A DNA stretch of 50,311 nt from Acidimicrobiia bacterium. Lineage in GTDB: Bacteria > Actinomycetota > Acidimicrobiia > Spongiisociales > UBA11373. A model generated the notes under the pieces. That model searched no databases. It worked only from the letters and a program-made list of their open reading frames with translations, and was not told the origin of the DNA. Shown here one piece after another: positions 12,557 through 16,491 of the stretch; within the stretch, counting starts at the first letter, position 1; each line of letters begins with the position of its first letter. Made by a program: the position numbers and the translations under genes. The stretch is taken from NCBI GenBank assembly GCA_040878325.1, contig JBBDMM010000017.1:1-50311 (forward strand), read 5' to 3'.

Positions 12557-12931
12557 CTAGTGCTCCCCTAGAGCAATGGCAAACACCATCGCGTCCTTGT
12601 CGGTGTGGGTGATCGTCACCTCGAAGCCGGTGACACCGAGCATCTCGGCCCGCTTCTGGGCGGTGCCGTAGAGCCTGACCGTGGGCTTGCCGCCGCCGGT
12701 GATCTCCACATCGGTCCACCGGATTCGCCGCCACCCGGTGCCCATGCTCTTCATCACGGCCTCCTTGCCGGCGAATCGCGCCGCCAATCGCCGCTCCGGC
12801 TTGCTGAATCGGAAGGCGTACTCCCGCTCATGATCGGTGAAGCACCGCTCGGCAAACCGCGGATACTTGCCCAGCACAACGCGAACCCGCTCGATGTCGG
12901 CCAGATCGATCCCCAAGCCGATGATGCGCAT
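12557..12931 (-). CDS. acpS: Holo-[acyl-carrier-protein] synthase AcpS
   Basis: 124 residues, the standard AcpS length. It transfers 4'-phosphopantetheine from CoA to the serine of acyl carrier protein. GLGIDLADIERV at the N-terminus carries the Mg2+-binding Asp, and RFAGKEAVMKSMGTG near residue 50 is the second signature, with the catalytic Glu-Ala-x-x-Lys arrangement. The ATG at 12929-12931 is chosen. The frame stays open upstream only because it runs through a heptamer array. Downstream of glmS, as in many actinobacteria. Confidence 0.93.
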   Translation of the reverse strand: MRIIGLGIDLADIERVRVVLGKYPRFAERCFTDHEREYAFRFSKPERRLAARFAGKEAVMKSMGTGWRRIRWTDVEITGGGKPTVRLYGTAQKRAEMLGVTGFEVTITHTDKDAMVFAIALGEH

Positions 12932-13026: not shown

Positions 13027-14883
13027 TCACTCCACCGTCACCGACTTGGCCAGGTTCCTCGGCTGATCGATGTCGTGGCCTCGGGCCGCCGCCACGTGAT
13101 AGGCGAGGAGTTGCAGGGGAATGATCGACACCAGCGGCGACAGAACATCCGGCACCCGGGGAATCCGCAGCACCTCGTCGGCGTGCTTGGCGATCTGATC
13201 GTCGTCTTCGTAGGCCACGGCGACCACGAAGGCGCCGCGGGCCTTGACCTCTTGAATCGCAGAGACCGTCTTGTCGTAGACGTCGCCCTGGGTGATCACC
13301 ACCACCACCGGGGTGCCCTCGGTGACCAGCGCCAGGGTGCCGTGCTTGAGCTCGCCGGCCGGCATCGACTCGGAGTGGATATAGGAGATCTCCTTCATCT
13401 TGAGCGAGCCCTCCATCGACACCGCGTGGTCGAGCCCTCGTCCAATGAAGTAGATGTCGTCGGAGGTACCTTCGGGACGCGGCGGCGCTGCCGAGCGGGC
13501 GAGGCGTTCGGCGATCCGCACCACCTGGTCCTCGGACTTGAGCGCCTCACCGATCTTCGCCGGGATTCCCCGGAGCCCGGCCACCAGCGTCTCGTCGATG
13601 GCTGGATCGAGGGTCCCCCGTTCCCGTCCGATGGCGAGCGCGAGCAGGTACTCGCCCACGAGCATCGTCAGGTACGCCTTGGTGGACGCAACCGCGATCT
13701 CGGGCCCCGCCCGGGTGTAGAGGATGTCAGTTGCTTCGCGGCTCAGGGTGGAGCCCACCACGTTGGTGAGGGCCAGGAGGCGCGATCCCCTCTCCTTCAC
13801 CAGCCCGGCTGCGGCCAGGGTGTCGGCGGTCTCGCCGGACTGACTGATCGCCACCGCGAGCGTCGTCCCCTGGATGATTGGGTCCGAGTACCTCAATTCG
13901 TGGGCGTAACCGACCTCGGTCGGGATCCGTAGCAGTCGCTCGAAGAGCTCCTTGCCGACGAGGCCGGCGTGATAGGCGGTGCCGCAGGCCGTGATCCAGA
14001 TCTTGTCGAGTCCCTCGATGAACCCGTCGGGGAAGTGGACATCCTCGAGCGCAACCCTGCCGTCTTCGAGCAGGCGTCCGCTCAAGGTCTCGGTGGCCGC
14101 GTGCGGTTGCTCGAAGATCTCCTTGAGCATGAAGTGGGGGTATCCGCCCCGCTCCGCCTGCTCGGCATCCCAGGTGATCTCGAGCTTCTCTCGCTCCACG
14201 GGCGTGCCGTCGAGCTTCTCGATCCTCCATCCATCCGGGGTGATATCGACCATCTCGCCGTTCTCGATCACCACGATGTCGCGCGTGTGCTCGAGGATCG
14301 CCGGCACGTCCGAGGCGAGGAACATCTCACCCTTGCCGATGCCGACCACCAGTGGGCTGATCATCCGTACCGCCACCATCCGCCCAGGTTCCTGCCGGCA
14401 CATCGCTACCAGGGCGTACGCCCCTTCGGCTTTGCCCACCGCCCGGCGCACCGCCTCGAGCAGGTCGCCGTCGTATTCGCGAGCGATGAGGTGGGCGAGC
14501 ACCTCGGAGTCCGTTTCGGACGTGAACTCGGCGCCCTCGGCCGCAAGCGTCTCCCGCAGCACCACGAAGTTCTCGATGATCCCGTTGTGGACGACGACGA
14601 AATCGCCGCCGGGGTCGGTGTGAGGATGGGCGTTGCGATCGCTCGGGGCACCGTGGGTGGCCCAACGGGTGTGCCCGATGCCGAAGTGGCCGGCCACCGG
14701 ACTGTCTTCGAGCACCGCTGCCAGCCTCGAGAGCTTGCCTTCGGCCTTGGTGACTGTGAGCACGGTGCCGTCATGCACCGCGATCCCTGCCGAGTCGTAT
14801 CCGCGGTACTCGAGGCGGCGAAGCCCCTCGACCACGATCTGGGCCGCATCTTTGGGGCCCACGTATCCCATGATTCCGCACAT
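13027..14883 (-). CDS. glmS: Glutamine-fructose-6-phosphate aminotransferase GlmS
   Basis: 618 residues. It makes glucosamine-6-phosphate from fructose-6-phosphate and glutamine, the first step to UDP-GlcNAc. Cys2 in MCGIMGYVG becomes the N-terminal glutaminase nucleophile after Met removal. The class II glutaminase domain is about residues 1-220; two SIS domains follow (about 290-420 and 460-600), with ESMPAGELKHG near 490 and the invariant NLAKSVTVE end. The ATG at 14881-14883 places Cys correctly. A 270-nt leader with a glmS ribozyme precedes it, implying feedback mRNA cleavage by the product. Confidence 0.98.
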   Translation of the reverse strand: MCGIMGYVGPKDAAQIVVEGLRRLEYRGYDSAGIAVHDGTVLTVTKAEGKLSRLAAVLEDSPVAGHFGIGHTRWATHGAPSDRNAHPHTDPGGDFVVVHNGIIENFVVLRETLAAEGAEFTSETDSEVLAHLIAREYDGDLLEAVRRAVGKAEGAYALVAMCRQEPGRMVAVRMISPLVVGIGKGEMFLASDVPAILEHTRDIVVIENGEMVDITPDGWRIEKLDGTPVEREKLEITWDAEQAERGGYPHFMLKEIFEQPHAATETLSGRLLEDGRVALEDVHFPDGFIEGLDKIWITACGTAYHAGLVGKELFERLLRIPTEVGYAHELRYSDPIIQGTTLAVAISQSGETADTLAAAGLVKERGSRLLALTNVVGSTLSREATDILYTRAGPEIAVASTKAYLTMLVGEYLLALAIGRERGTLDPAIDETLVAGLRGIPAKIGEALKSEDQVVRIAERLARSAAPPRPEGTSDDIYFIGRGLDHAVSMEGSLKMKEISYIHSESMPAGELKHGTLALVTEGTPVVVVITQGDVYDKTVSAIQEVKARGAFVVAVAYEDDDQIAKHADEVLRIPRVPDVLSPLVSIIPLQLLAYHVAAARGHDIDQPRNLAKSVTVE

Positions 14884-14949
14884 GCGCGCGCGTCTCCCTT
14901 CGCGAGGAGACCAGGAGGACCCACGGGACAATGGTCCCGCCTCACACCG

Positions 14950-15085
14950 ATCCGGGCTCTGCCTCCGGGATCACTCCCGGGCTCTAACCCGCATCGTCAC
15001 GACCGTGAGTTGCCGAGAGGGCATCCGCCGACTGCTCGATGCTCCCTCTTCCTCGTCACCTCTCCTAAGAGAGGGCAGGCGCTCC
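14950..15085 (-). ncRNA. glmS ribozyme (GlcN6P-activated self-cleaving RNA)
   Basis: On the minus strand, GGAGCGCC places the cleavage site between A at 15083 and G at 15082. It is followed by P1 (CCTCTC-TTAG-GAGAGG), the conserved core GACGAGG, P2 (AGAGGG paired with CCCTCT), the conserved CGGCGGATG, a P3 hairpin TCACG-GT-CGTGA, and P4 (CCGGGA-GTGA-TCCCGG, 14965-14980). Order, spacing and invariant blocks match the B. subtilis and B. anthracis glmS ribozymes. The cut would fall 199 nt upstream of the glmS ATG. Glucosamine-6-phosphate is the established cofactor. Bases immediately 3' of P4 may also belong to the element. Confidence 0.92.
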
Positions 15086-15127
15086 AATAACTCCGTCTGG
15101 GTCACCGGTCTGTTGCATTGTCTGTCG

Positions 15128-15153: not shown

Positions 15154-16491
15154 CTAGCCGTCGCCCTCCAATACGCCCCCGAGTTCCCTCCGTACCACCA
15201 CGACAAGGTCGTCGGCTATGGCGGCCGCTTCATGGCTCTCGGTTGCCTCGACCATCACCCGCACGAGCGGCTCGGTGCCGCTGGCCCGGATCAGCACTCG
15301 GCCCTGATCTCCCAGCCGCTTCTCCATGGCGGCGACGGTCGACCAGATGGGATCGGCGTCGGCGAGACGTTCCTTGACCCTCACATGGACGTTGCGCAAC
15401 ACCTGGGGATACTCGACCATCACCCGGCGAAGTTCCTTGAGGGGGGCCCCGGTGGCAGCGACGACTTCGAGAAGGCGCATCCCCGTCACGAGCCCGTCGC
15501 CGGTGCTCCGGTCCCGGAACAGCACATGGCCGCTCTGCTCACCGCCGAGACCTGCATCGACCCGCTGCATTTCTTCACGCACGTAACGATCCCCCACCGG
15601 GGTCTCCAACAGTTCGACGCCCATCTTCCGCATTGCCAGCCGGAACCCCAGATTCGACATCACCGTGGCTACCACCCGGTCGCCGGGAAGCTCACCGCGG
15701 CCGCGGAGGTGTCGGGCGAGAATCGCCAGGATCACGTCGCCGTTGCACACCCTGCCGTCCTCGTCCACGGCGATGCAGCGATCGGCATCACCGTCGAAGG
15801 CGAGGCCGATTTTGCCGGCGGCGTGCTCGGCGAGCATGCCCGTGCTCACCGCGCCGCAGCCGTCGTTGATGTTCATCCCGGTGGGCTCGATGTTGATCGC
15901 CTCGACATCCGCCCCCAGATCGGCAAACAGCCGCGGGCCTGCAAGAAATGCCGCCCCGTGGGCACAGTCGAGCACGACCTCGAGGCCCTGGAGTCGGTAG
16001 GCGGATTTGGCGGAAATGGACTTGAGATAGGCCGTCATCCCATCCCGACTGGGGACCTGGATTCCCACATCGCCGCCGCTCACCTCGTGCCAGGGAGGCC
16101 CATGCCGCAGGCGACCCTCGATCGCCGCCTCGTGATCGTCGTCGAGTTTGCCACCGTCAGGCCCGAAGAACTTGATGCCGTTGTCGGCAGCGGGATTGTG
16201 GCTGGCGCTGACCATCACCCCGAAGGCGGCGTTCATCTCCCGGGTGTGGAAGGACACCGCGCCAACCGGCACGATCCCGAGATCGACGGTGTCGAACCCG
16301 GCGGCGTTGAAACCGGCGTGGACGGCCGAAGCGAGCATCTGACCCGACCGGCGCGTATCCCGGCCCACCACGGCCAAACCGCTGCGACCGTCACCGGCGG
16401 CGCGGGCCAGCCCCATCGCGAGATCGGTGGTGAGGTCGACATTGGCGACGCCCCGGACGCCGTCCGTGCCGAATAAGGACTTGTGGGCCAT
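15154..16491 (-). CDS. glmM: Phosphoglucosamine mutase GlmM
   Basis: 445 residues. It converts glucosamine-6-phosphate to glucosamine-1-phosphate, the step after GlmS. FGTDGVRG is near the N-terminus. VSASHNPAADNGIKFFG holds the phosphoserine at about residue 97. The metal loop DGDADRC follows near 238 and the phosphate-binding RASGTEPLVRVMVEA near 405. The start is ATG at 16489-16491, 33 nt downstream of rpsI. rpsI-glmM adjacency is usual in actinobacteria. Confidence 0.98.
   Translation of the reverse strand: MAHKSLFGTDGVRGVANVDLTTDLAMGLARAAGDGRSGLAVVGRDTRRSGQMLASAVHAGFNAAGFDTVDLGIVPVGAVSFHTREMNAAFGVMVSASHNPAADNGIKFFGPDGGKLDDDHEAAIEGRLRHGPPWHEVSGGDVGIQVPSRDGMTAYLKSISAKSAYRLQGLEVVLDCAHGAAFLAGPRLFADLGADVEAINIEPTGMNINDGCGAVSTGMLAEHAAGKIGLAFDGDADRCIAVDEDGRVCNGDVILAILARHLRGRGELPGDRVVATVMSNLGFRLAMRKMGVELLETPVGDRYVREEMQRVDAGLGGEQSGHVLFRDRSTGDGLVTGMRLLEVVAATGAPLKELRRVMVEYPQVLRNVHVRVKERLADADPIWSTVAAMEKRLGDQGRVLIRASGTEPLVRVMVEATESHEAAAIADDLVVVVRRELGGVLEGDG

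Follow-up and report, generated by a model that had tools for sequence, protein, structure and literature searches.

A predicted glmS ribozyme in front of a Firmicutes-type glmS in an Acidimicrobiia bacterium

The glmS ribozyme is known mainly from Bacillus-like bacteria. A preliminary description of the DNA studied here (the window, i.e., the whole analysed stretch of 50,311 nucleotides) placed such an RNA at positions 14950–15085, in the leader of glmS in an actinobacterial-type genome, and offered old inheritance or transfer as its origin. The locus raises two questions, namely whether this leader holds a genuine member of the family, and whether the RNA and the gene behind it share one history.

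The RNA and its place in the glmS leader

The proposed ribozyme was confirmed by a covariance-model search, in which cmscan of the window matched RF00234 (Rfam glmS) at 14939–15094 on the reverse strand with 73.7 bits and an E-value of 3.6e-15, well above the gathering score of 37. The match is full length (model positions 1–167 of 167). It is the sole Rfam match in a scan of the whole window, and a search of the genome returned the window copy as its sole glmS-ribozyme match. The features of the locus are as follows.

15154–16491, reverse strand: glmM, phosphoglucosamine mutase, upstream (TIGR01455, 489.5 bits)
14939–15094, reverse strand: glmS ribozyme (full RF00234 match, covariation)
15082–15083, reverse strand: predicted self-cleavage site between A(-1) 15083 and G(+1) 15082 (placed from where AGCGCC aligns to RF00234)
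14924–14939, reverse strand: small hairpin CGGGAC-cauu-GUCCCG directly 3' of the ribozyme (from folding; weak)
14892–14912, reverse strand: hairpin (G)GUCUCC...GGAGAC burying the glmS Shine-Dalgarno sequence GGGAG (unpaired probability 0.02)
13027–14883, reverse strand: glmS, isomerizing glutamine-fructose-6-phosphate transaminase, with its start at ATG 14883–14881 (TIGR01135, 763 bits)
12557–12931, reverse strand: acpS, holo-ACP synthase, downstream of glmS (TIGR00516, 66.5 bits)

The sequence contains every block named in the preliminary description (GGAGCGCC, GACGAGG and CGGCGGATG) as well as a P4 capped by GTGA. Sequence and alignment also show the core elements that mark membership of RF00234, i.e., AGCGCC at the cleavage site, GACGAGG, AUCGA and UCGGCGGAUG. 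The scissile position given there, A15083|G15082, agrees with the site predicted from the RF00234 alignment. The range given there is shorter than the ribozyme and misses the 3' side of the P3.1 pseudoknot, which sits at 14945–14941. Judged from its sequence, the window element is thus a genuine glmS ribozyme and belongs to the known family, which seems to be little described in these lineages.

The order glmM-ribozyme-glmS also holds, as the TIGR01455 and TIGR01135 matches confirm. The ribozyme sits 60 nt after glmM and 55 nt upstream of glmS, which starts at ATG 14883–14881 and not at TTG 14931. In all 62 loci compared (the window and 61 relatives), the distance from ribozyme to glmS start lies between 32 and 206 nt, with a median of 60.5. 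A promoter and terminator scan detected nothing, including no promoter between glmM and the ribozyme. At the site of the small hairpin at 14924–14939, similar hairpins are common in relatives, just slightly more so than in shuffled sequences, and many relatives have a different hairpin at this position.

Helices, pseudoknots and covariation

The structure read from the window sequence comprises the following elements.

15059–15074, reverse strand: P1 hairpin, CCUCUC (15074–15069), loop UUAG, GAGAGG (15064–15059), 6 bp; several pairs covary across 34 sequences
15051–15057, reverse strand: invariant GACGAGG block, read from the sequence, whose CGA (15055–15053) would pair with UCG (15039–15037) as P2.1; nearly invariant in the A1/A2 alignments
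15016–15049, reverse strand: P2, AGAGGG (15049–15044) with CCCUCU (15021–15016), 6 bp; four of six pairs compensatory, 100% of cells paired
15026–15081, reverse strand: P2.2 pseudoknot, CGCC (15081–15078) with GGCG (15029–15026), inside CGGCGGAUG; complementary
15000–15015, reverse strand: P3, CGGC (15015–15012) with GUCG (15003–15000); 99.4% of cells paired
14941–15009, reverse strand: P3.1 pseudoknot, CUCAC of the P3 loop (15009–15005) with GUGAG (14945–14941); three of five pairs compensatory, 92% paired
14948–14996, reverse strand: P4 with GUGA tetraloop, lower part 14996–14988 with 14956–14948 (one G.G), upper part CCGGGA (14980–14975) with UCCCGG (14970–14965), loop 14974–14971; 14 of 15 pairs compensatory across the family

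This explicit structure, with its pseudoknots and 44 pairs in total, was evaluated on an alignment of 34 ribozymes of the class. Standard pairs occupy 94.6% of the cells against 82.2% after shuffling, and two-sided compensatory changes are found at 27 of the 44 pairs against 15.7, with none of 500 shuffles as good on any value. When the 3' partners are slid by one to three columns, pairing falls to 38–46%, a comparison in which the tested structure is somewhat favoured, having been drawn from the window's own sequence. The covarying helices are P1, P2, P3.1 (absent from the structure drawn by Rfam) and both parts of P4. In a comparison by eye, the P2 of the window exceeds that of the examined Firmicutes copies by one pair.

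The two predicted core pseudoknot helices, P2.1 and P2.2, are both complementary in the window sequence. P2.2 is invariant in all 34 ribozymes (three of its four pairs being counted), so that its covariation is uninformative and complementarity is its support. The label P2.1 for the CGA/UCG pairing follows the T. tengcongensis nomenclature, as read from PMC7125110. The CGA/UCG pair that Rfam draws after AUCGA, counted as helix 5, shows zero variation and is uninformative. A regular expression for the core produced many false positives and missed some copies, and its use was restricted to reading segments.

These results bear on two alternative explanations of the element. A chance match of a GC-rich leader would account for a single-sequence folding energy that is unexceptional (z of -1.22), as expected for a GC-rich region, although a minimum-energy fold cannot hold pseudoknots. 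However, the E-value of 3.6e-15, the conserved place before glmS and the strong covariation refute this explanation, which is scarcely credible. The second alternative is a decayed or inactive remnant that persists as a leader structure. The score of 73.7 bits is below that of most relatives, typically 80–110, and the copy has three flaws, i.e., an isolated A.G at the top (last pair) of P3, an isolated G.G in P4 and a C.U at the foot of P1. The preliminary description had called P1 and P2 perfect, which is true of both 6-bp stems but overlooks the C.U mismatch at the base of P1. However, every catalytic-core block is preserved, the two core pseudoknots retain complementarity, the P1 and P2 stems are perfect, and the fold is under selection across the order, making decay very unlikely.

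Distribution across the class and the phylum

RF00234 RNAs were found in 57 of 59 near relatives, including all 43 of those that are at least 90% complete, in at least 128 of the 296 class genomes, and in at least 75 of the 396 genomes sampled from the phylum. The counts for class and phylum are lower bounds because the searches of these large sets used stricter filters. An apparent ribozyme without glmS in one relative (G002) was rejected, since it lies at a contig end. Family f73, with genomes of 8–10 Mb and probably streptomycete-like, gave no RF00234 match. The view that actinobacteria are not known for this RNA therefore stands for the big-genome, streptomycete-like lineages sampled here and fails for other actinobacterial lineages, where the ribozyme is widespread; the window's genome is thus no exception. 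A literature search found no paper linking glmS ribozymes with Acidimicrobi- or Rubrobacter, a search that did not reach the distribution papers of McCown and colleagues.

Within the class, every ribozyme-bearing family (f1–f8, f11, f12 and f13) has a canonical GlmS, and a canonical GlmS without the RNA is found in f15, f16, f23, f25 and f32. Family f12, with low-GC genomes of 1 Mb, presumably resembles Actinomarina, from which the class is judged to be probably Acidimicrobiia. Many families of the class that lack the ribozyme encode no canonical GlmS but a divergent GlmS-like protein of about 1120–1215 residues (L252:1000-4446, L202–L205), which carries an insert of about 200 residues behind its N-terminal Cys region and is also much extended at the C-terminus.

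Variant arrangements and sequences were also observed. In f77, small-genome actinobacteria of genus g181 (L253, L254, L248; G470, G361, G338), the order is glmM-ribozyme-glnA-glmS-acpS in three genomes, and in a fourth the same order is cut by a contig end. The glnA gene, preceded by the ribozyme, encodes a type I glutamine synthetase (TIGR00653, 524 bits), so the sensor may in this family also control the supply of glutamine, a substrate of GlmS. The f77 ribozymes (L184, L185, L248) have GCGCAUG for GCGCCUG at the cleavage-site strand, CAGCGG for CGGCGG, an A.A in place of the 5–53 pair, and a long hairpin insert. In the f13 ribozyme (L192:2075-2340, reverse strand; 62.9 bits), P1 and the loop that precedes the CGGCGG block carry large insertions.

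Probable separate histories of the RNA with GlmM and of GlmS, and the proposed regulation

Comparison of the RNA and GlmS phylogenies, suggested in the preliminary description, yields trees that disagree, with a class-native RNA and a Firmicutes-type GlmS. In two GlmS trees whose results agree (140 rows with FastTree, and 83 rows under a better model), the window GlmS and those of f2, f5, f7 and f8 of the same order, together with f12, fall inside a group (support 100) with Clostridia-type Firmicutes. The GlmS of f3, f4 and f6, also of this order, and of f11 and f13 are grouped with other Actinobacteria. Joining the two sets by force costs 125 log-likelihood units (AU p of 2.7e-5). In the GlmM tree, f1, f2, f3, f5, f7 and f8, sampled from the order and covering both GlmS types, form one group (support 100).

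The presence of both GlmS types inside one order would also be expected if they were ancient paralogues sorted differently among families, with no transfer. However, just one canonical GlmS is encoded in the window genome, where the second of two matches is 33% identical over residues 1–219 only, and the two GlmS types nest, each with strong support, with different phyla, so that differential sorting is unlikely.

The ribozyme trees were built in two ways, from a covariance-model alignment and, independently, from a balanced MAFFT alignment; they use about 145 columns and seven Firmicutes copies, and base composition differs between the groups. In both trees, all ribozymes of the class form one clade (99/95 and 96/95), and joining the window-type RNAs with Firmicutes RNAs is rejected (p of 0.008 and 0.003). 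The RNAs of f4 and f6 are nested with the window type despite the actinobacterial-type GlmS of these families. These trees bear on a further alternative, i.e., that the ribozyme and a Firmicutes-type glmS were transferred as one unit, with the RNA later converging or recombining with resident copies. A ribozyme-bearing donor is plausible because the loci of the nearest named GlmS proteins (L024, L035, L014) also carry RF00234. However, the position of the window type among the class ribozymes, the rejected grouping with Firmicutes, the nested RNAs of f4 and f6, and the 6-bp P2 and other class-typical details common to window-type and f4/f6-type copies all argue against this scenario, which appears distinctly unlikely.

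The ribozyme and glmM thus look to have been inherited within the class, and in the window's lineage the coding sequence of glmS looks to have been acquired from Firmicutes-like bacteria. The simplest account is that the ribozyme and glmM are resident and that the glmS coding sequence downstream of them was exchanged. Both halves of the earlier "old inheritance or transfer" survive as separate parts, inheritance for the RNA and glmM, and transfer for the glmS coding sequence. Monophyly of the RNAs of the Firmicutes-type-GlmS group is compatible with the data (p of 0.12), so that exchanges may have occurred in another order, in either direction and more than once. It is probable that the ribozyme and glmM stayed while glmS was replaced by a Firmicutes-type homologue, or replaced back to the actinobacterial type in sister families. 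A resident ribozyme and glmM with a swapped glmS would make the regulatory RNA a fixed socket for exchangeable genes.

The two GlmS types also differ in the hairpin over the Shine-Dalgarno sequence. The mean unpaired probability of this sequence in leaders of the window-type GlmS is 0.20, against 0.42 with shuffled upstream sequence, and no such burying effect is found with the other GlmS type (0.54 against 0.57 shuffled). Within the window's family the hairpin at 14892–14912 is conserved, and it goes with the Firmicutes-type GlmS; it is possibly an extra layer of control on glmS.

In comparison with known systems, the RF00234 RNAs of B. subtilis, T. tengcongensis and B. anthracis belong to the family that the window RNA matches over its full length, and have the same core blocks, P3.1, GNRA-capped P4 and place before glmS, together with the double pseudoknot that is predicted for the window RNA. 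Unlike them, the window RNA is hosted by an actinobacterium and has a P2 of 6 bp with a short linker; a further difference is the hairpin over the glmS Shine-Dalgarno sequence, added in the leader of its lineage. The Clostridia loci L006, L008, L014, L024 and L035 have the same RNA family, and their GlmS proteins are among the nearest named relatives (50–53% identical), whereas their RNAs group apart from the class RNA. In E. coli, GlmY/GlmZ likewise provide feedback on glmS expression, but through trans-acting sRNAs with RapZ/RNase E and no ribozyme (PMC3997798).

The probable feedback by glucosamine-6-phosphate (GlcN6P) is backed by the covariance model, covariation and context, with catalysis predicted by homology. 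When plentiful, GlcN6P would enter a preformed pocket as a cofactor, and the bound RNA would cut itself between A15083 and G15082, leaving a glmS mRNA with a 5'-hydroxyl end. RNase J would then degrade this mRNA, and the synthesis of GlmS would therefore fall. In B. subtilis, it is established that RNase J1 degrades the self-cleaved glmS mRNA (PMC3997798). What was observed directly is the conserved structure with its covariation, a location ahead of glmS that essentially every relative shares, and a gene for RNase J encoded by the genome (TIGR00649, 480.9 bits, over the cut-off); cofactor dependence, cleavage and mRNA decay in the window's leader are predicted by homology. It is highly probable that this leader carries a functional glmS ribozyme-riboswitch, an old resident of the class behind which the window's glmS would have been exchanged, unless the reverse exchange took place in sister families.

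In several little-studied lineages of actinobacteria, and not only in Firmicutes, the glmS ribozyme would thus be a standard element of regulation. The locus would offer a clean natural example in which a riboswitch and its target gene have different histories, and the glnA-glmS arrangement suggests that the same sensor can be extended to the supply of glutamine.
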